Assembly (NCBI GenBank): GCA_003167365.1
Contig: PMTM01000022.1
Coordinates: forward strand, 1-64,000
Direction: 5' to 3'
Length of the DNA stretch: 64,000 nucleotides
Source: Spartobacteria bacterium
GTDB lineage: Bacteria > Verrucomicrobiota > Verrucomicrobiia > Chthoniobacterales > UBA10450
Shown: positions 17,107-35,432 of the stretch, piece after piece
How positions within the stretch are numbered: the first letter of the stretch is position 1
Layout: each line of letters begins with the position of its first letter
Position numbers and translations under genes: made by a program
Notes under the pieces: generated by a model
What the model was told of the DNA's origin: nothing
The model's database searches: none
Seen by the model: the letters and a program-made list of their open reading frames with translations, nothing else

Positions 17107-17643
17107 TTAATGGCCGATCTTATCGGCGATCGCGAGTGTTTCGATTGGGAGCGGTGCGAGAAAATCTTTCGCATCGTTCACTTTCAAGAGTGGCTGCGCC
17201 AGATAAGCCGCCATGAAACTGGTATCGGGCTTATCTGCGATTCCCGCTTTTGCCGTAATCTCGCAGTCGTTTAATTGTTCGATCACTCGCGCGACCTTTC
17301 GGACGAGATCGCGATTGTCCGTAAATTGAATTGTGCAAACACCGGGACTCGTCGCTTCGACATAGGGAGCCAGCGTAAATGCGTAGTGAAGCACAATTTC
17401 ATCGAGTAATTGTTCCTGCGTTCGTGCTCGGATTTTTACCATGAGACTAAGACAGCGCGCCAATCCCTGAGTGGGCGTCATTCCTTTGCGCACGCCAGCC
17501 TTTTCCGCCACCTCATTGAGCTGAATGATCGCGGGCTTTGTCTCTCTGTCGTCCAGTAACGCCAGCGGTTGGGTGCGCAATTCAGGTTGATGACGCGCGA
17601 CCGCCTGCAAATAAAAATTCGGCAAATAAAGCGTGGCAAACAT
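17107..17643 (-). CDS. imuB: ImuB N-terminal half (split Y-family polymerase-like protein)
   Basis: From ATG 17643 (overlapping the imuA stop as TAATG) the 178-aa product covers the palm/fingers part of ImuB: MFATLYLPNFYLQAVARHQP, PTQGLARCLSLMVKIRAR, AGIADKPDTSFMAAYLA and KDFLAPLPIETLAIADKIGH, then TAA. The acidic catalytic residues of active Y-family polymerases are absent, as in ImuB proteins. A normal ImuB continues with a helix-hairpin-helix, little-finger and C-terminal beta-clamp/ImuA/DnaE2 interaction region; all of that is missing here but is encoded at 31272-32246 on the other strand. Last gene of a lexA - imuA - imuB run. Whether the half protein functions is unknown. Confidence 0.82.
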   Translation of the reverse strand: MFATLYLPNFYLQAVARHQPELRTQPLALLDDRETKPAIIQLNEVAEKAGVRKGMTPTQGLARCLSLMVKIRARTQEQLLDEIVLHYAFTLAPYVEATSPGVCTIQFTDNRDLVRKVARVIEQLNDCEITAKAGIADKPDTSFMAAYLAQPLLKVNDAKDFLAPLPIETLAIADKIGH

Positions 17644-18350
17644 TAACTGGCCTCCGTCAGGTAGGGACGGCGCGCTGCGCTGTCCTGACATCGCAGTGCG
17701 ATGTCGCTATCAGAAATTTGAAGATGCGAACGTTGCACGCGAATGCGCAGCCGCGCGATGGCGTTCTCTTCTTCGAAAGTATCGAGCGTCCACAGGTTTT
17801 CGAGAACGATTTTCAATTGGGCGCTGCCGACCATGTTCTGTCGGGTCAGGACCAGGCAGGCCGTCGGCGCGGCTTCGACCAGACGTTGCAGGCGATACCA
17901 ACTGGTCTGCGGAATCTTGCGCAATTCATTCGGGGCATTGAGGACAAGATCGACAATCACCAGCGGGAAATTTCCATCGCGCAAAAGCAAATCGGCTGCT
18001 TTGATTGCTTCGGCTGCTTTACCGCAACGCACCCATAAAAGATTTCGCAGCCGCGAATTGCCCAGTCCGCCTGAGGCGGACGGATCAAAGGAATCCCGGC
18101 CATCAATTAGTGCGAGAAAGTAACGATCGCGATGGGCGGTTTGGAGAAGCGCATAAATCAACGATGCACTTCCAGCACTTGTATGCGAACTGATCAGTTC
18201 CGTAATGGCGCCTTTCGGCAATCCGCCGTTCGTCGCTTGATCGAAAAAAGATAAGCCGGTGCTTAAATACGTTGTCGCCGGCAACTGGATCTGCTGAAAC
18301 CGTTCGGCTAGAAGATTACGAAGATCGATAACCTTGCCGCTCGCTGCCAT
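17643..18350 (-). CDS. imuA: ImuA, RecA-like mutasome protein
   Basis: The 235-aa protein fits the ImuA/SulA-related RecA-like family: LSTGLSFFDQATNGGLPKGAITEL at the start, SSHTSAGSASLIYALL where RecA has its Walker A (degenerate here), and PLVIVDLVLNAPNELRK as the Walker B strand. ImuA works with ImuB and DnaE2 in SOS-induced translesion synthesis. A LexA-type palindrome lies 27 bases upstream of the start, in the short gap after lexA. The stop overlaps imuB's ATG. Confidence 0.85.
   Translation of the reverse strand: MAASGKVIDLRNLLAERFQQIQLPATTYLSTGLSFFDQATNGGLPKGAITELISSHTSAGSASLIYALLQTAHRDRYFLALIDGRDSFDPSASGGLGNSRLRNLLWVRCGKAAEAIKAADLLLRDGNFPLVIVDLVLNAPNELRKIPQTSWYRLQRLVEAAPTACLVLTRQNMVGSAQLKIVLENLWTLDTFEEENAIARLRIRVQRSHLQISDSDIALRCQDSAARRPYLTEAS
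17946..17957 (+). repeat. AAGATCGACAAT motif, exact copy
   Basis: Inside imuA; the minus-strand reading is Ile-Val-Asp-Leu. Confidence 0.8.
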
Positions 18351-18376
18351 TCAAAGAGAATGCAGCAATAAGAGAT

Positions 18377-18392
18377 ATGTTCAAGAGAACAT
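18377..18392. promoter_or_regulatory. LexA box upstream of imuA
   Basis: ATGTTCAAGAGAACAT is a perfect palindrome in both 6-base arms and matches TGTTC-N4-GAACA. It lies between the lexA stop and the imuA start (18350), the expected place for SOS control of imuA-imuB. Confidence 0.8.
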
Positions 18393-18414
18393 TTACTCGC
18401 GAAAGCTTTCGGAG

Positions 18415-19041
18415 TTAAACGCGTTTCCGCCGTTGCCCGGCCGGCTGCTTCCGCACCAGCGATACCATCACTCCTTGGATCCTTAGCTCGCGTGCCGGAG
18501 TCAGATTTGGAAAACGCGGATTTTCCGCTTTCAAATAAGGCCGCCCATGTTCCGTGACATACCGTTTCAAAGTCGTCTCGCCGTCGATCAACGCGGCCAC
18601 GATATCGCCGCTTTGCACATCTTTCCGGTCTTCCAGGATGACAATGTCCCCATCGACAATGTGCGCATCGATCATTGAATCCCCGCGGACACGTAAGGCA
18701 AAGGTCCGTCCACTTTTTGAGATATTGGCCGACCGCATATCGAGCGAGACATGACCTTCCACGGTTTGTTCGGTCAATGTCGCCATGCCGGCGGGAATCT
18801 GACCGTAGATCGGAATGTCGGTGATCCTGACCTTCATCGCCGGCGTGATCAGCGCGCGGGCCTTGCGCGCGTGTCGATCGAGAAATCCTTTCCGCTCGAG
18901 CGCGTCGAGGTATTGCATCACCGATGTCTGACTGGCGAAACGGAAATGTTTCTGGATCTCGCGCGTGCTCGGCGTCATCCCTTTTTCGCGTTGCTCGCTC
19001 TGGATAAAATCGAGGATGCTTTTTTGCCGATCTGTCAGCAT
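18415..19041 (-). CDS. lexA: LexA repressor
   Basis: ATG at 19041 gives MLTDRQKSILDFIQ, a standard LexA start, and a 208-aa product. The winged-helix domain includes TPSTREIQKHFRFASQTSVMQYL. The C-terminal peptidase has the self-cleavage site Ala-Gly in GQIPAGMA (residues 84-85), the catalytic Ser in RGDSMIDAHI (S122) and Lys in ETTLKRY (K159). It represses SOS genes and self-cleaves on RecA filaments. A near-palindromic box 35 bases upstream suggests autoregulation. An upstream TTG would add six residues. Confidence 0.93.
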   Translation of the reverse strand: MLTDRQKSILDFIQSEQREKGMTPSTREIQKHFRFASQTSVMQYLDALERKGFLDRHARKARALITPAMKVRITDIPIYGQIPAGMATLTEQTVEGHVSLDMRSANISKSGRTFALRVRGDSMIDAHIVDGDIVILEDRKDVQSGDIVAALIDGETTLKRYVTEHGRPYLKAENPRFPNLTPARELRIQGVMVSLVRKQPAGQRRKRV

Positions 19042-19075
19042 GACGTAAGGCTCGCGCAAAACAATTCAGGCGCAA

Positions 19076-19087
19076 GTTCAAATGAAC
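19076..19087. promoter_or_regulatory. LexA box upstream of lexA (autoregulation)
   Basis: GTTCAAATGAAC is a perfect GTTC-N4-GAAC palindrome; the outer bases are A and A, so it matches TGTTC-N4-GAACA except at one outer position. It ends 35 bases upstream of the lexA ATG. Confidence 0.65.
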
Positions 19088-19291
19088 AGATCGGTGACCG
19101 ACCAAGGATCTCGCTATAATCAGGATGTCCCCAAAATTTGGTTCGCTTCTCGTGGTTTTTCCCGCAAAATAAAACGTGCGGTACCGAATCTCTGGACACG
19201 AGTCATTCCCGTGTCGCTATACTTGGCTCCCCAAGGCGGTTCGTGCATCACAAACCGCTTTCTCCGATCAGCGAGCCGAAAGGTCTGCGCC

Positions 19292-27300: not shown

Positions 27301-29283
27301 ATGATCGCCCTCAAAGATTCTCTCGGCACCGATTTTGTCGAACGGGTCGGCTCGATTTTTTCCAAGGACGGCCTGCTCTCGAAGGCCAAGAACTTCGAAT
27401 TCCGTCCGGAACAGCGGGAGATGGCCGCGGCGGTGGCGAAAACGCTGGAGGAAGAACGGCATCTGGTGGTGGAGGCGGGAACCGGCGTTGGGAAATCGCT
27501 CGCCTATCTGGTTCCGGCGATTCTGTTCGCGCTCGAGCAGCACAAGAAAGCGATCGTTTCCACCCATACGATCAATCTGCAAGAGCAACTCGTTCATAAG
27601 GATATTCCGATTTTGAAGAAAATCCTGCCGGTGGAGTTCGAGGCGGCGCTTTTGAAAGGTCGGCACAATTACCTTTGTCCGCGGCGACTGGAGCGCGCGT
27701 TGCAGCAAGGGAACGAGCTCTTCACGACAACCGAACAAGCTGAATTGACGCGTTTGGCCGAGTGGGCGCGGACTACGAGGGACGGATCGTTGAGCGATTT
27801 GGCGCTCGAGCCCGACCCAAAAGTTTGGGCGCAAATTTCGAGCGAACCTCATATCTGCACGACAAAGACCTGCGGACAACGGGCCGATTGCTTTTATCAG
27901 CAGGCCAGAAAACGCATTCTGGCCGCGGATGTGATTGTGATCAATCACACGCTGCTCTTTATGTTGCTCGGGAGTCCGGATGAGCAGCAAGAGCGCGAAA
28001 GCGGTTTTCTCTTTCCGAACGATTTCATCATTTTCGACGAAGCACACACGATCGAACAGACCGCGTCTCGGCAGGTTGGGATCGGCGTTTCCGAATACGG
28101 GCTACGATCGACAATTCAACGGTTGTATAACGCGCGGACGAAAAAAGGCCTCTTCACCTTCACTCGAGACGCGACCGGAGTGAAGCTGGTTGGCTCCCTA
28201 ATCGAAGATGTCGATTTCTTTTTTCGAAGTGTGGAAGGGCGCTGCGATTTTAAGAAGGGGCGGGAATTTCGCGTGCGCGAGCCGGACCTGGTTGCCGGGA
28301 CAATCACCGGCCGCCTGCTCGCGTTGCAAGCGCGCATCGCTGAGGTCGCTAAACAGACAGACGACGAATTCCTCAAAGCCGAATTGCAGGACCTGGGCCG
28401 GCGAATTCGAGACGCGCGCGACGGAATCGAGATCTTCCTCGCCCAAAGCGCTAGTGAACACGTTTATTGGGTCGAACGCACGGGCAAAGCCGCTAAATTC
28501 TTGTCGCTCAACGCGGCGCCGATCGACGTCGCGCCGGTTTTGCGCCGCATGCTTTTTCGCGAGGATTGCTCGTCTGTGATGACGAGTGCAACTCTGGCGG
28601 TCGGTCGTCCCGATCTCGCCTATTTTCGAAAGCGAGTTGGCGCGGGCGACGCTGAGCCGTTGCAATTGGGGAGTCCGTTCGATTTTTCCAAACAGATGAA
28701 AATATTCATCGTGCAAAAGATGCCGGACCCGCGGGATGCGACTTACGAAGAAGCGCTCGAGCATTGGATCGCGCATTTCGTCGAAGAAACGGATGGGCGC
28801 GCGTTTGTGCTCTTCACCAATTATCGCGCCATGCTCCAGGTGGCCGCACAGATGGGGGAGTTTTTTGTGAAGAAGGGAATGAACTTGTTGGTGCAAGGGG
28901 CGGGTTTGCCGCGTGGCCTATTGCTGGAGCAGTTCAAGACAACACCGCGCAGCGTTCTCTTTGGGACGGACAGCTTTTGGATGGGGGTCGATGTTCCAGG
29001 TGAGGCGCTCTCCAACGTGATCATCACTCGATTGCCTTTTGCCGTGCCGGATCATCCGTTGATCGAAGCCAAGCTCGAGTTTATCGAAGCACGCGGTGGC
29101 GACGCGTTTACCGAATACTCATTGCCGGAAGCGATCTTGAAAATGCGCCAGGGCGTAGGCCGTTTGATTCGAACCAAGAGTGATAAAGGGATTATCGTCA
29201 TCCTCGACAACCGGATCGTAACAAAACCTTACGGGCGCGCGTTTTTGAGCGCGCTGCCCAAGTGTCCGGTCAAAATCATTTGA
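27301..29283 (+). CDS. dinG: DinG-type Fe-S superfamily 2 DNA helicase
   Basis: The 660-aa protein has FRPEQREMAAAVA (Q motif region), Walker A in VEAGTGVGKSLAYL (about residues 58-70), Cys residues for a 4Fe-4S cluster in YLCPRRLE and CTTKTCGQRADC, the DEAH box in IIFDEAHTIE (about 245), and motif VI around MRQGVGRLIRTKSDKG. DinG/XPD-type helicases unwind 5'-tailed DNA, D-loops and R-loops and in E. coli are SOS-induced. No LexA-type palindrome was seen upstream of this gene, but one follows 17 bases after its stop. Confidence 0.9.
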   Translation: MIALKDSLGTDFVERVGSIFSKDGLLSKAKNFEFRPEQREMAAAVAKTLEEERHLVVEAGTGVGKSLAYLVPAILFALEQHKKAIVSTHTINLQEQLVHKDIPILKKILPVEFEAALLKGRHNYLCPRRLERALQQGNELFTTTEQAELTRLAEWARTTRDGSLSDLALEPDPKVWAQISSEPHICTTKTCGQRADCFYQQARKRILAADVIVINHTLLFMLLGSPDEQQERESGFLFPNDFIIFDEAHTIEQTASRQVGIGVSEYGLRSTIQRLYNARTKKGLFTFTRDATGVKLVGSLIEDVDFFFRSVEGRCDFKKGREFRVREPDLVAGTITGRLLALQARIAEVAKQTDDEFLKAELQDLGRRIRDARDGIEIFLAQSASEHVYWVERTGKAAKFLSLNAAPIDVAPVLRRMLFREDCSSVMTSATLAVGRPDLAYFRKRVGAGDAEPLQLGSPFDFSKQMKIFIVQKMPDPRDATYEEALEHWIAHFVEETDGRAFVLFTNYRAMLQVAAQMGEFFVKKGMNLLVQGAGLPRGLLLEQFKTTPRSVLFGTDSFWMGVDVPGEALSNVIITRLPFAVPDHPLIEAKLEFIEARGGDAFTEYSLPEAILKMRQGVGRLIRTKSDKGIIVILDNRIVTKPYGRAFLSALPKCPVKII

Positions 29284-29299
29284 CACTTTACTTCCAAAG

Positions 29300-29313
29300 T
29301 GTTCATCTGAACA
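29300..29313. promoter_or_regulatory. LexA box upstream of the repeat-protein / imuB-C / dnaE2 operon
   Basis: TGTTCATCTGAACA is a perfect TGTTC-N4-GAACA palindrome, ending 7 bases before the ATG of the repeat-protein gene at 29321. Its arms are identical to those of the box in front of imuA. Confidence 0.8.
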
Positions 29314-29320
29314 TATCACG

Positions 29321-31264
29321 ATGAAGAAAATGCGATTCTCGATCTTAGCCGCGGCTGCGGCATTGCTTGTCGGGGTCGCGATTGGCCATTACGCGATTCC
29401 AGGTTCAAAAATTCCACGCGTGAAAACAGCGGCAACTGCGTTGTCGAGCGAAGCGAATACGTCGGTCGCCACTACGATTCTTCCTCCGCCGAAAGATTCA
29501 ACATCGACAATTAAATCCACAGGCGAACCCGCTCCTTCATCCGCCGAACAAATTATCGAGAGCATTAAAGCTGCGGTCGCACGTCCCGACACCCGCCATA
29601 CTTATGTGACTTTCAGTAAGCTGGCTGAATCGGTTGATGAAAAAAATGTGCGCGAGGTTCTCGCGTTCGCGCAAAACCTGCCTAGGCAACAGGACAAAAG
29701 CACGCTCGTCTCTCTGCTTGTCGGCCGTTGGGCCGAGTTCGATCCGAAATCCGCCATCGCTTATGCGCAAAGTTTGCCGGGAGGTTCGCCTCGTAACGCA
29801 GCGGTGACCAGTGTCGTCGGCGGCTGGGCCGAGCACGATTTGGCAGCGGCCACGGCTTGGACGCAGCAATTGCCGCCGGGTCAGGCTCGCGATCAAGCGA
29901 TGCAAACGATTGTTTCCTCGCTGGCCGATAAAGATCCGCAAGCTGCCCTCAGCTTTTTGGAAAACTTGCCGCCAGGCCGAAGCCGCCAGCATCTTTATTG
30001 GCCGATTTTTAGTCGTTGGGCGACGAGCGATCCGATGGCGGCAGCGGAAGCCGCGACGCAGCTTCCGGCGGGCACAAGTCGCGATGCGACTTTGCAAGCA
30101 ATCGGTTCCACTTGGGCGAATCAGGATCCGGAAGCTGCATTTACTTGGGCAAATAATTTACCGCAAAACCAGGGACGGAATAATGCGCTGCAAAACATTC
30201 TTTCGAACTGGGCGACGAAAGATCCGCAAAAAGCGGCAACCATCGCGGTGAGCTTGCCGAATGGGAACACTCGCGATCAATCGATCGGCAACATCGCGCG
30301 GCAATGGGCGTTGACCGATGCGCGCGCCGCGCTCGCCTGGACACAAGCTTTGCCCGCGGGTGAATCACAAAAACGGGCGTTGCATGCGGTGCTGGCCGCC
30401 TGGGTGCAATCGGATCCGACGGCAGCCGCTTCTTATGTCACGACACTTCCATCTGGCAAAGCGCAGGAAGAAGCGAGCCTGACAATCGCGATGCAACTGG
30501 CCGGTAGCGATATCCCAGGAGCCATTAGTTGGGTGCAAAAACTTCCCGCCGGCACTGGCCGGCAAGGCGCCCTTGCCAATATCGTTTCGCAATGGAGTGA
30601 ATCCGATCCGCGCGCGGCGGCTGATTTTGCATTGCGCTCGAGCGAAAAGGACGATCGCAAGAATTTGCTCGAAAAAATCTCGCGGCAATGGGCGTATCAG
30701 GATCCGCAAGCTGCGCTTTCCTGGGCAGAAAATTTGTCCGACCCCATGGCCCGGGATTCTGTTTTGCCCAACGTTATCGCAGCTGTCTCCGAAACCGATC
30801 CCCGCGAAGCAACCAAACTTGTTTCGCGATTGTCATCTGGCGAAGCGCAGACGAATGCCGCGGTTGCAATTATCACTCAATGGGCCGGTGAAGATCCACA
30901 GGCTGCAAGTCAGTGGGCGGCTTCCTTTCCGGAAAACTCCACCCGAGAGCGCGCGTTCGAGAGTTTGATCAATCGTTGGTCGCAAACCGATCCCTACGCG
31001 GCGGCGTCTTGGCTTTCGACTTTGTCGCAAGGTGCATCGCGCGATAAAGCCGTGGGTACTTTTGCCAGGAACATTGCCGTTTCTGATCCGCAAACGGCCG
31101 CGCAATGGGCTGAATCCATCGGCAGCGACACTGTCCGCAATGCTCAGCTCGAACCCATTGTCGCTAATTGGCTCAAGACCGATTCAAACGGCGCGACGGC
31201 TTGGATCCTGACTTCTTCACTTTCGGATGAAATGAAAACCAGGCTGCTTCCGCAGGGGAAATAA
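29321..31264 (+). CDS. Secreted repeat protein (about 16 repeats of 35 aa) heading a LexA-type operon
   Basis: The 647-aa product has an N-terminal signal or anchor (ILAAAAALLVGVAIGHYAIPG), a Ser/Thr-rich linker to about residue 75, then roughly sixteen 35-residue helical repeats with the pattern W-A-x-x-D-P-x-A-A-x-x-W-x-x-x-L-P-x-G-x-x-R. Examples are WATSDPMAAAEAATQLPAGT and WANQDPEAAFTWANNLPQNQ. They resemble TPR/Sel1-like alpha solenoids and imply protein binding outside the cytoplasm. It starts 7 bases after a LexA-type palindrome and its stop is only 7 bases before the second half of imuB. Function unknown; the SOS link comes only from position. Confidence 0.75.
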   Translation: MKKMRFSILAAAAALLVGVAIGHYAIPGSKIPRVKTAATALSSEANTSVATTILPPPKDSTSTIKSTGEPAPSSAEQIIESIKAAVARPDTRHTYVTFSKLAESVDEKNVREVLAFAQNLPRQQDKSTLVSLLVGRWAEFDPKSAIAYAQSLPGGSPRNAAVTSVVGGWAEHDLAAATAWTQQLPPGQARDQAMQTIVSSLADKDPQAALSFLENLPPGRSRQHLYWPIFSRWATSDPMAAAEAATQLPAGTSRDATLQAIGSTWANQDPEAAFTWANNLPQNQGRNNALQNILSNWATKDPQKAATIAVSLPNGNTRDQSIGNIARQWALTDARAALAWTQALPAGESQKRALHAVLAAWVQSDPTAAASYVTTLPSGKAQEEASLTIAMQLAGSDIPGAISWVQKLPAGTGRQGALANIVSQWSESDPRAAADFALRSSEKDDRKNLLEKISRQWAYQDPQAALSWAENLSDPMARDSVLPNVIAAVSETDPREATKLVSRLSSGEAQTNAAVAIITQWAGEDPQAASQWAASFPENSTRERAFESLINRWSQTDPYAAASWLSTLSQGASRDKAVGTFARNIAVSDPQTAAQWAESIGSDTVRNAQLEPIVANWLKTDSNGATAWILTSSLSDEMKTRLLPQGK

Positions 31265-31271
31265 ACCGGGT

Positions 31272-32246
31272 ATGAAAGCGGAAGGGACACCGAAAGATCT
31301 TAAAACCGCCGGCGAAGTTCATAAGATTCTGGAGATCTTGCATAAGTGGGGGATTCATACCCTCGGTCAGTTTGCCAGTCTGGATAAAGAGGAGCTAAAT
31401 GCGCGTCTTGGGTCCGAAGCGGTCCGGCTGTGGGAGCGCGCAAATGGAAAATCGATTCGACTGCTCAAATGGGTACAGCCTCCGGAAGCGTTTGCGGAAA
31501 GCTTTGAATTCGAACACGAAGTCGAAACCGTCGAACCGCTGCTCTTCATGCTGCGCCGTTTTTTGCAGCAGCTGACTTTTCGATTAAGCGCAATCTATCT
31601 TGTCGCAAAAGAACTCACTATTCGGATTACTTTTGCCGACAAAAAATGTTACGAGCCCCATTTTAAAATTCCGCAGCCGACGAACGATGTCGATCTTCTG
31701 TTTCGGATGCTGCACACGCATCTTGAAAATTTTAAATCCCCCCAACCAATCATTGCCGTCTCGCTCGAGGCTCAACCGATCAAGCCTGCTCGGCAACAGT
31801 TCGGCCTTTTCGAAACTGCATTGCGTGATCCCAATCAGCTTTACGAGACGCTCGCGCGACTCATTGCTTTGTTAGGCGCGGCTCGAGTCGGCACGCCTGC
31901 TCTAGAGGAAACTTATCGGCCGGATGCTTTTCGTATCGAACCATTTTCGTGGGAGTTAAACGATGCGTCTGCAACAAACGATGCAATCCCGCGTTCTGCG
32001 CTGCGGCGTTTTCGCCCAAATGTTCCTGCTTCTGTCCTGCTAAACGAAAGTAAGCCCGCCTACATCCGAAGTTCGCGAATCGAAGGCGAAGTCTCGGCGC
32101 AACAAGGGCCTTATGCGGCCTCCGGCAATTGGTGGGATGAAGCACGCTGGAGCCGGCTCGAATGGGATGTGCAATTAGAGAACGGAGTTTCAGCGCGCTG
32201 TCATCAAACCGAGAGCGGATGGGCCGTCGATGGCATTTACGATTAG
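31272..32246 (+). CDS. imuB: ImuB C-terminal half (split Y-family polymerase-like protein)
   Basis: The 324-aa product begins where the other half (17107-17643) stops: after a short lead, EVHKILEILHKWGIHTLGQFASLDKEELNARLGSEAVRL is the helix-hairpin-helix/thumb region, FEFEHEVETVEPLLFMLRRFLQQL opens the little-finger domain, and the C-terminal tail with RRFRPNVPASV and WWDEARWSRLEWDVQLENG is typical of ImuB's clamp and partner-binding end. No palm domain is present. The two halves sum to 502 aa, a normal ImuB length. It sits 27 bases before dnaE2, its usual partner. Confidence 0.85.
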   Translation: MKAEGTPKDLKTAGEVHKILEILHKWGIHTLGQFASLDKEELNARLGSEAVRLWERANGKSIRLLKWVQPPEAFAESFEFEHEVETVEPLLFMLRRFLQQLTFRLSAIYLVAKELTIRITFADKKCYEPHFKIPQPTNDVDLLFRMLHTHLENFKSPQPIIAVSLEAQPIKPARQQFGLFETALRDPNQLYETLARLIALLGAARVGTPALEETYRPDAFRIEPFSWELNDASATNDAIPRSALRRFRPNVPASVLLNESKPAYIRSSRIEGEVSAQQGPYAASGNWWDEARWSRLEWDVQLENGVSARCHQTESGWAVDGIYD

Positions 32247-32273
32247 TGAAAACCACCACCCCGGTGGCCGCGT

Positions 32274-35200
32274 ATGTCTTATGTCGAACTCCATGCACGC
32301 AGTGCGTTTAGTTTCCTCCGCGGCACTTCATTCCCAGAACAATTAGCTGAGACTGCCGGCGAGCTCGAGATGCCGGCGCTGGCCCTGCTCGATCGTAACG
32401 GGGTTTATGGCGCACAACGCTTTTCCGTTGCGGCACGCGAAAACAAGGTGCGACCAATTGTCGGATGCGAACTGAGTATGGAGGACAGCGGTATTTTGCC
32501 CGTGCTGGTGGAGAATCGCACCGGCTACAAAAATTTATGCGAACTGCTTACCCACTCGCATCTGCGAAGCGAGAAAGGAAAGTGCTCGATTCAATGGAAT
32601 GAACTCCCGCCATTCGGCGAAGGGCTCGTGGCATTTTACAACGCATCGTTACTCGATTCGCACCACGCGATCGAAAAATTATTGTCGATCTTTGGCAGAG
32701 AAAATCTCTACGTTGAAATTCAACGCCATTTTCTCCGCGGCGAAGAACGCGTTAATCGATCGCTGGTCGATCTTGCCGCGCATTATCGGTTGCCGATCTT
32801 AGCCACGAACGGCGTGCAGTATGCAAAACCGTACGGGCGACAAGTTCTCGACGTCTTCACCTGTATTCGTGAACACACCCACCTCGATGCCGCCGGCAAA
32901 CTGCTGACGCAAAACAGCGAACGGCACCTGAAGAGCGATGCTGACATGTGCGAGCTCTTTCGCGATTTGCCTGAAGCGATCGAAAACACCGCGCGGTTGG
33001 CCGAACACCTCACTTTTTCACTGAAGAACATCGGCTACGCATTTCCGGATTTCGCTGTGCCGGACGGACACAGCATGGATTCATTTCTGCGCACGATCAC
33101 CTGGTTTGGCGCCCAGCAACGTTATGCAGGGCTCGGCGTTGCGGTTAAACGCCAGATCGAGGAGGAACTTGCTCTGATTCAGAAACTGGGGTTCTCCGGA
33201 TATTTTTTGATCGTTTGGGACATCATCAATTTCTGTCGCGAACACAACATTATGGTTCAGGGCCGGGGCAGCGCGGCGAACAGTGCGGTTTGTTATTGCC
33301 TCGGCATCACCCCAGTCGATCCGGTGAACAACCATTTGGTCTTCGAGCGTTTTCTCAGCGAAGGGCGAAAAGGCTGGCCGGATATTGATCTCGATCTTCC
33401 CAGCGGCGATCGGCGGGAAAGCGTGATTCAGGAAATTTATCGGCGATACGGCAAGCACGGCGCGGCCATGACCGCGAACGTGATTACGTATCGGGGCCGC
33501 AGTGCGGCGCGGGAGATCGGCAAAGCATTAAATTTTCCGCCGAGCATTATCGACCGCTTTTCCCATTTGTTTGCCAACGGCGACTTTCCACACACGCTCG
33601 ATCTCCAATCTCAGATCGCTCAGGCCGGTTTACCCAAAGAACATCCGCGCATGCCGGCGTTCATAAATTTATATCAAGCCATCTACGGTTTGCCGCGCCA
33701 CCTCGGCCAGCATTCCGGTGGGATGATCATTTGCCAAAACAAACTCAGTTCATTCGTCCCACTTGAGAATGCATCGATGCCGGGACGCGTCGTCGCTCAA
33801 TGGGACAAGGACGATTGTGAAGACCTTGGCATCGTAAAAGTCGATCTACTCGGTCTCGGCATGATGTCGGTCATGCAGGATGCGCTCGAGTTATGTCGCG
33901 ATCGCGGCCGACCGCTCGACTTGGCGCACATTCCGAAAGATGACGAGACAACCTTCCAGATCATGCAAAAGGCCGACACCATCGGTATTTTTCAAATCGA
34001 GAGTCGCGCGCAAATGGCGACGCTGCCGCGGATGAAGCCGAAATGTTTTTATGATGTCGTGATCGAGGTCGCGATCATTCGGCCGGGACCGATTCAGGGC
34101 GATATGGTGCATCCGTATCTGAATCGTCGAGCTGGACGGGAACCGGTGACTTATTTTGATTCGCGTCTCGAGCCGATCCTAAAGCGCACATTGGGCGTTC
34201 CGTTGTTTCAGGAACAAATGCTCAAGATCGCGATGGTGATGGCGGATTTTTCCGGTGACGAAGCGGAGGAATTGCGGCGTGCACTCAGTTTTCATCGCTC
34301 GGAGGAGCGAATGAACAAAGTGAGCGTGAAGCTGCGCGCGGCCATGATGCGAAAGGGTATTGCCCCTGAAGTGATCGACAAAATCATTCAATCGATCAGT
34401 TCGTTTGCGCTTTATGGATTTCCCGAGTCGCACGCGATCAGTTTCGCCATCCTCGCTTATGGAAGCGCGTATCTAAAAGCGCATCGCGCGCCGGAGTTTT
34501 ACGTCAGTCTCCTCAGCAATCAGCCGATGGGTTTTTACACGCCCGCTACGATCGTGAAAGACGCCCACCGGCATGGCGTTAAAATCAAGCCGGTATGCGT
34601 CGTGCAATCAGAATGCCGATGTACGGTCGTTTCAGACGACACCGTTCGATTGGGATTTTGCGTGGTGAACGGATTGCGGCAGGAACACGCCGAAGAGCTC
34701 GTGCGGCAACGGCAAGATCGACAATTTCATTCGCTGGATGATTTCAAGCGACGCGTGCCGCTCTCGAAAGAAGAGCTGCGCATTCTCGCCGAACTGGGCG
34801 CGCTCAATTGCTTCACCGATCATCGGCGGGCGGCGATGTGGAGAGTGGAAGAGAACATGCATGACGATCTATTCGCATCGGCATGTCATCCCGAGCGAAG
34901 CGAGGGACTTCACCTACGAAGCACGCAGCAAACTGTGGACGGAGAATGTTCTATTTCCCTATGTGAGATCCCTCGCTTCGCTCGGGATGACAGAGGAGAA
35001 AAATCGCCGCTCAAGCCGATGACGATGCCGGAACGGGTCCGGGCGGATTACGAAACGATGAATCTAACCACCGGTCCGCATCCGATGAAACTGTTGCGCG
35101 AAAGTTTACCGGATGTTTGGCGAGCGACGGATCTCATCCAGGCGCGGCACGGAGCGATCGTGCAAATCGCCGGCAACGTGATTTGTCGTCAGCGTCCGGG

Positions 35201-35432
35201 GACAGCCAAAGGGTTTGTCTTCATCAGCCTGGAAGACGAGACCGGCGTTTCAAATGCAATTGTCGATCCTAACTTATTTGAGTGCTTCCGTCTGCTCATC
35301 ACCGAGGAAGCGTTTCTGCGTATTACCGGCGAAGTCCAGAACGCTGACGGCGTCGTTTTAATCAAAGCGCAGAAACTTGAGCCGCTCAATCACGAAGAGC
35401 TTATCGGCTCCAGTTCGCACGATTTTCACTGA
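32274..35432 (+). CDS. dnaE2: Error-prone DNA polymerase III alpha subunit DnaE2
   Basis: The 1052-aa protein has an N-terminal PHP domain ([20 protein letters not shown]), the C-family palm with [20 protein letters not shown] and the catalytic [12 protein letters not shown] (D370, D372, D374), the fingers ([27 protein letters not shown]), [33 protein letters not shown], and an OB-fold near the end ([25 protein letters not shown]). It is the polymerase of the ImuA-ImuB-DnaE2 mutasome. An inverted-repeat element inserted in frame adds about 36 residues (roughly 871-907) in the linker before the OB fold. Operon with imuB-C and the repeat protein under one LexA-type box. Confidence 0.95.
   Translation: [1052 protein letters not shown]
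32681..32692 (-). repeat. AAGATCGACAAT motif, exact copy
   Basis: Inside dnaE2; read there as Leu-Ser-Ile. Confidence 0.8.
34714..34725 (+). repeat. AAGATCGACAAT motif, exact copy
   Basis: Inside dnaE2; read there as Gln-Asp-Arg-Gln, a different frame from the other copy in this gene. Confidence 0.8.
34884..34992. mobile_element. Inverted-repeat (MITE-like) element inserted in frame in dnaE2
   Basis: The first 24 bases (34884-34907, TGTCATCCCGAGCG...) are the exact reverse complement of the last 24 (34969-34992). The 109-bp unit has no gene of its own. In the dnaE2 frame it reads as CHPERSEG... and ...[11 protein letters not shown], a signature commonly seen where this kind of palindromic repeat is translated. 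Related but less perfect copies are at 49696-49811 and 50811-50953. Confidence 0.88.

Follow-up and report, generated by a model that had tools for sequence, protein, structure and literature searches.

The described system with which the present locus is best compared is the LexA-regulated imuA-imuB-dnaE2 cassette. Split forms of this cassette are on record, e.g. mycobacterial imuA'-imuB and dnaE2, in which the cut falls between genes (PMC6511836); stand-alone ImuB-C proteins have been described as well, and these consist of the terminal domain only (PMC3765255, PMC6511836). The 64 kb of DNA analysed here (the window) comes from the soil Verrucomicrobia, Candidatus Udaeobacter and relatives. 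It has all functions of the cassette, with imuA, imuB and dnaE2 all present, LexA operators upstream and lexA adjoining imuA; it differs in that imuB is two genes, each with an operator of its own, and in that a membrane repeat protein gene, here called REP, stands before the second unit. Of these two departures the split ImuB is the more interesting finding.

Genes and LexA operators of the window

On the plus strand, positions 27301-35432 carry, in this order, a DinG/YoaA-type helicase gene, an operator, REP, imuB-C and dnaE2. On the opposite strand, 17107-19059 hold lexA, an operator, imuA and the N-terminal half of imuB.

17107-17691, minus strand: imuB-N, palm and fingers of the split ImuB (alignment to intact ImuB; weak PDB matches, to DNA polymerase IV residues 11-156)
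17643-18350, minus strand: imuA (NCBIfam ImuA and RecA matches below cut-off; synteny with lexA in relatives)
18378-18391, no strand assigned: LexA operator of imuA-imuB-N (perfect palindrome, 27.6 bits)
18415-19059, minus strand: lexA (TIGR00498, 176 bits, over cut-off)
19075-19088, no strand assigned: probable LexA operator of lexA itself (one mismatch, 15.8 bits)
27301-29283, plus strand: DinG/YoaA-type helicase, 5′ of the operator (Pfam Helicase_C_2; best NCBIfam match YoaA, below cut-off; conserved neighbour)
29300-29313, no strand assigned: LexA operator TGTTCATCTGAACA 5′ of REP (perfect TGTTC-N4-GAACA palindrome, 24.5 bits)
29321-31264, plus strand: REP, 647 aa, N-terminal hydrophobic anchor and alpha-solenoid of 32-aa repeats (open reading frame; orthologue alignment; AlphaFold)
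31272-32246, plus strand: imuB-C, thumb, little finger and C-terminal region of the split ImuB (Pfam IMS_C; alignment to intact ImuB; Y-family fold matches)
32274-35432, plus strand: dnaE2, error-prone DNA polymerase (NCBIfam NF004225, 1172 bits, over cut-off)

The original prediction, that a LexA-type box is followed by REP as the first gene and that 7 nt separate the REP stop from the imuB-C ATG (31272), was confirmed on both counts. The operator 5′ of this first gene of the predicted operon is of the verrucomicrobial type, as expected of a member of the LexA regulon. Operators were scored with a 20-mer matrix whose training set comprised only 22 imuA operators from the window's family, the window's imuA box being among them and the REP box not. 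Only the three sites listed above (imuA, REP and lexA) score ≥8 in the 64 kb, and no score ≥12 was observed in ten shuffles of 179 kb of relatives' DNA (1.79 Mb). The sequence of the lexA operator, AGTTCAAATGAACA, is the same in several relatives.

Four other exact boxes in the genome were considered as SOS targets and rejected, none of them reaching 9 on the 20-mer matrix; judged by eye from translations, three are intragenic (in genes for a large TPR-containing protein, nuoL and a probable sugar-phosphate lactonase) and the fourth lies just beyond the end of a glycosyltransferase gene. For recA as an SOS target, no matrix site was found in the 4-kb stretch scanned. In outgroup family f4, a mirror-type palindrome GAAC-N4-GTTC (ATATGAACAAATGTTCATAA) was seen ∼35 nt 5′ of imuA (genome G039, L131:10296), a sequence that hints at two LexA motif types within one order.

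The spacing between box and REP start is 7 nt in the window (16 nt to the second ATG) versus ∼28 nt in other species, and no evident counterpart of the other species' leader motif follows the window's box. To judge from the alignment with orthologues, the true start of REP may be the ATG at 29330. The interior of dnaE2 (∼34878-35010) has an apparent in-frame insertion of an interspersed DNA repeat (CHPERSEG...RFARDDRGEKSP), of a type found also elsewhere in the window's genome.

The repeat protein

Two segments of REP were delimited.

29342-29398, plus strand: hydrophobic segment, aa 8-26, signal anchor or signal peptide (mean Kyte-Doolittle 2.1)
29645-31261, plus strand: repeat region, aa 109-647, with one degenerate unit, 15 full 32-aa units from aa 141 and one partial terminal unit (lag-32 self-identity, unit listing)

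An exported solenoid of ∼35-aa repeats had been proposed. The repeat is real, but its period is 32 aa: self-identity reaches 28.5% at lag 32, whereas 1000 shuffles gave no more than 12.5% at any lag of 20-50, and between aa 141 and aa 621 the units, each beginning with a D, follow one another at exact 32-residue intervals without indels. The 16-17 units carry the signature W-A-x-x-D-P-x-A-A. In the AlphaFold model (mean pLDDT 83) a low-confidence linker extends to about residue 70 and is followed by an all-helical solenoid with helix pairs throughout, i.e. the tandem helix-pair repeats of constant length that define an alpha-solenoid. With the HEAT, TPR and PPR solenoids REP has in common tandem helix pairs in a superhelix; it differs from them in its fixed period and its own signature, and no profile matches above cut-off (only TPR_30 and ELYS were hit, below Pfam cut-offs, and there was no NCBIfam match). 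The best fold matches, to karyopherins, SF3B1 and PPR10, are to generic solenoids with top TM-scores of 0.2-0.3, and a sequence search against PDB returned nothing useful.

K/R residues precede a single, strongly hydrophobic stretch (residues 8-26) in which no clear cleavage motif is seen; alignment places an N-terminal hydrophobic stretch in the REP orthologues too. The protein had been called secreted. On these features it is equally likely that the segment is a signal anchor, which would hold REP in the inner membrane and leave the solenoid in the periplasm.

REP evolves under purifying selection (dN/dS 0.10-0.29) and is therefore a working gene. Its relatives are spread over several families of the order and lie in unrelated neighbourhoods, a single genome having up to 14 matching segments; when the neighbours of paralogues were considered as a clue to function, the contexts were scattered and no common partner was seen. 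Loci L051-L053 and L172-L181 belong to a large family of N-terminally anchored 32-aa-repeat proteins from several families of the order, in which a G-R motif after the anchor is frequent. By its sequence, REP is a member of a large protein family matching no described one that we found. A periplasmic protein-binding scaffold would be the default guess from the modelled fold.

The divided imuB gene

Four outgroup families of the order, f4, f5, f6 and f9, have imuB as a single gene and imuA-imuB-dnaE2 contiguous, mostly with lexA. In the window's family imuB is split in every genome where a half was found. The halves are ∼13.6 kb apart in the window, where no single gene encodes palm, fingers, thumb, little finger and C-terminal domain together. 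In an alignment to intact ImuB the cut falls between LPIETLAIADKI and KILEILHKWGIHTLG, where palm/fingers meet the thumb, and hardly any sequence is missing. In the model of the C half, which is of modest confidence (pLDDT 64.5) and has fold matches among Y-family polymerases, there are thumb helices, a little finger, one more helix and a C-terminal region rich in beta structure; this domain layout agrees with PMC6511836. Between genera, each half shows ∼50-73% identity to its counterpart in the window, and in nearly all of the loci examined a LexA box precedes it.

When one contig carries both halves, these point away from each other and enclose lexA and dinG, the layout that a single inversion broken within imuB would produce. 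We propose that such an inversion, in the family ancestor, cut imuB between the palm/fingers and thumb modules. As gene order suggests, lexA-imuA-imuB(N) would have remained at one end, and imuB(C)-dnaE2 would have been brought to the 3′ side of the dinG/yoaA helicase gene, with one LexA-controlled promoter presumably driving imuB(C)-dnaE2; the two ImuB halves would act together.

An assembly artefact, either for the split or for the linkage, was rejected, the same order being found in ∼30 separate assemblies. On the gene orders compared, the split is family-wide and is not caused by REP. In the open-access literature we found no description of this imuB cut, nor any paper dealing with ImuB in Verrucomicrobiota or with the SOS response of Udaeobacter; a two-gene ImuB under separate LexA boxes is apparently undescribed.

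Operator position and the history of REP

Three arrangements of the locus were defined in the window's family by the position of REP and of the box. Arrangement A, dinG-box-REP-imuBC-dnaE2, was observed in ∼10 genomes (G000 of g1, and genera g3, g7, g8 and g12), with boxes of 12-25 bits mostly ∼28 nt 5′ of the REP start. In G000, G018, G006, G014, G032, G011 and G028 (12 bits in the last) a box is found above REP and none above imuB-C; G021 and G007 have a box above REP, with REP and imuB-C on different contigs. The REP-imuBC junction in this group is a gap of 2-11 nt or an ATGA overlap, with the exception of G028 (≥127 nt). Genome G009 (g10) has a similarly close junction, the region upstream of its REP being beyond the contig. 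A tandem duplication of REP was seen in G025 (L039:7003-11801), with a box (15.5 bits) only above the copy adjoining imuBC.

Arrangement B, dinG-REP-box-imuBC-dnaE2, is present in all five genomes of the basal lineage (G010, G019, G026, G033 and G001): no site is found above REP, and a box of 20-27 bits lies just before imuBC, inside a REP-imuBC gap of 53-240 nt. Arrangement C, box-imuBC-dnaE2 without REP, accounts for at least 21 loci (17-31 bits), located after dinG where the contig extends there. There are two outliers: G013 has a boxless REP beside dinG and box-imuBC 9 kb further on, and G035 has no box above REP. A perfect LexA box between imuB-C and dnaE2 in G035 (L136:1889) represents a third operator position in the locus.

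The operator is thus not conserved upstream of REP orthologues, being present in ∼10 and absent from the five basal genomes, G013 and G035; none of 13 other REP homologues checked has a LexA box. Absence of the box from orthologues, which was to count against REP as leader of a LexA operon, is therefore found in part of them. Such an operon is predicted in the window and recurs in g3, g7, g8 and g12, but the operator stays with the mutasome family-wide. REP is beside imuBC with a box in only some of the relatives, and the other suggestion made originally, an envelope protein in the damage response, goes no further than a predicted co-regulation in a subset of genera. REP is retained behind the box in five genera (g1, g3, g7, g8 and g12) at 50-63% identity and is absent from most sampled species having the same mutasome. 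Judged from these sequences, the constant feature of the locus is LexA control of dnaE2, not of REP.

The box-to-start leaders of REP (A), imuBC (B) and imuBC (C) are closer to each other than any of them is to the imuA leader, to an extent exceeding base-shuffled controls; it therefore looks like one promoter. In REP-less loci L114, L120, L121, L122 and L124 a perfect 6-bp inverted repeat, GAGCGC-ATGAA-GCGCTC (with ATGCA and ATGGA variants), encloses the imuB-C start codon in its loop, and g4 species have a different inverted repeat at the same position. The repeat is possibly a hairpin at the mRNA 5′ end. These starts resemble the start of REP (ATGCAGCGCT), and the sequence could, alternatively, be a remnant of deleted REP.

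A species tree built on dinG, imuBC and dnaE2 has group B branching off before the rest of the family. With a simple model and with the tested groups defined by the trait itself, a single clade was rejected both for group A (AU p 0.0003) and for the REP-less group C (AU p 0.003). At least four state changes are needed on the tree. The tree alone is compatible with either A or B as the older arrangement; the boxless REP of group B and of the 13 homologues favours B, as far as sequence can tell. Insertion of REP anew in each lineage was rejected as less parsimonious, the REP tree agreeing with the species tree where resolved and the site being the same.

The simplest reading of these sequences is a capture of REP by the mutasome promoter, followed by at least two losses. 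A member of the verrucomicrobial family of membrane-anchored 32-residue solenoids would have adjoined the imuB(C)-dnaE2 promoter and, in one branch, come between the promoter and imuB(C), which would have placed REP under predicted LexA control. REP is predicted to share a transcript with imuB-C and dnaE2, and in some genera to be translationally coupled; its losses from the locus would have left the box directly before imuB-C. In the window's genome LexA would repress REP, imuB-C and dnaE2, and DNA damage should induce REP, presumably in the inner membrane with the solenoid outside, along with ImuB-C and DnaE2, although the mutasome does not need it.

REP is probably a passenger gene, because relatives keep the switch on the mutasome genes with or without REP; REP-less lineages keep the mutasome, which therefore does not need REP. 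We consider it reasonably probable that REP is a passenger in the SOS operon of a split mutasome, captured behind one LexA promoter and later lost. Still, its retention and identity in five genera and the tight or overlapping junctions could mean that induction is selected, the tree alone does not fix whether REP was ancestrally inside or outside the unit, and the window's own box lies 7 nt from the start with no evident leader motif. The same junctions, together with the constraint on REP, could be taken as signs of a genuine SOS effector, a scaffold in the inner membrane or periplasm whose induction serves a purpose, e.g. envelope protection of damaged non-dividing cells, and envelope-linked SOS genes are known elsewhere, such as HigX in Caulobacter (PMC13384398). 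This we regard as unlikely: most sampled species with the same mutasome lack REP, all five basal genomes have it outside the SOS unit, the 13 other homologues are boxless, and for HigX the paper attributes the SOS link to an inserted neighbour and speaks of a cost. More doubtful yet is a combined view, in which ImuB would be two separately encoded, LexA-controlled chains reassembling in the mutasome and the inner-membrane solenoid would be a genuine envelope damage-response component in some genera.

The original prediction also allowed that the rearrangement splitting imuB brought REP and its promoter, so that a pre-existing LexA promoter of REP would have rescued imuB-C-dnaE2. The breakpoint does lie at the REP/imuB-C junction, and a root with REP inside is equally parsimonious; yet the split is family-wide, the REP-less genomes that share it have the box at imuB-C, the basal lineage is boxless at REP and no REP homologue outside the locus has a box. 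This account is not supported, and we regard it as very unlikely. Least likely of all is that REP lies outside the operon, with a constitutive promoter of its own, a weak box and an unseen internal promoter for imuB-C-dnaE2. The window's short box-to-start spacing would fit it, but there is no sigma-70-like site near 31272, the LexA score there is -21.8, and at junctions with gaps of 2-11 nt or an overlap such a promoter could lie only within the REP coding region.

If REP is indeed a passenger, it would be a gene pulled into a stress regulon by position and then leaving, with close relatives as natural deletion controls. The split ImuB is a family-wide natural experiment on which joint of a catalytically dead polymerase tolerates cutting, and it makes testable whether the two modules work without need for one chain. 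HigX of Caulobacter (PMC13384398) resembles REP in being an ancestral envelope-related gene that its genomic surroundings brought under LexA control, and only in some species. The two differ in kind and in place: HigX, a membrane-associated transcription factor, follows an inserted toxin-antitoxin pair, and REP, a solenoid, precedes the mutasome. The stand-alone ImuB-C proteins (PMC3765255, PMC6511836) resemble the window's imuB-C as C-terminal pieces of ImuB located beside dnaE2 or a Y-family polymerase gene in SOS operons. In contrast to them, the window's piece is more than the C-terminal domain, adding thumb and little finger, and the window keeps the palm/fingers partner and imuA, with the cut made inside the polymerase core and, as we propose, by inversion.
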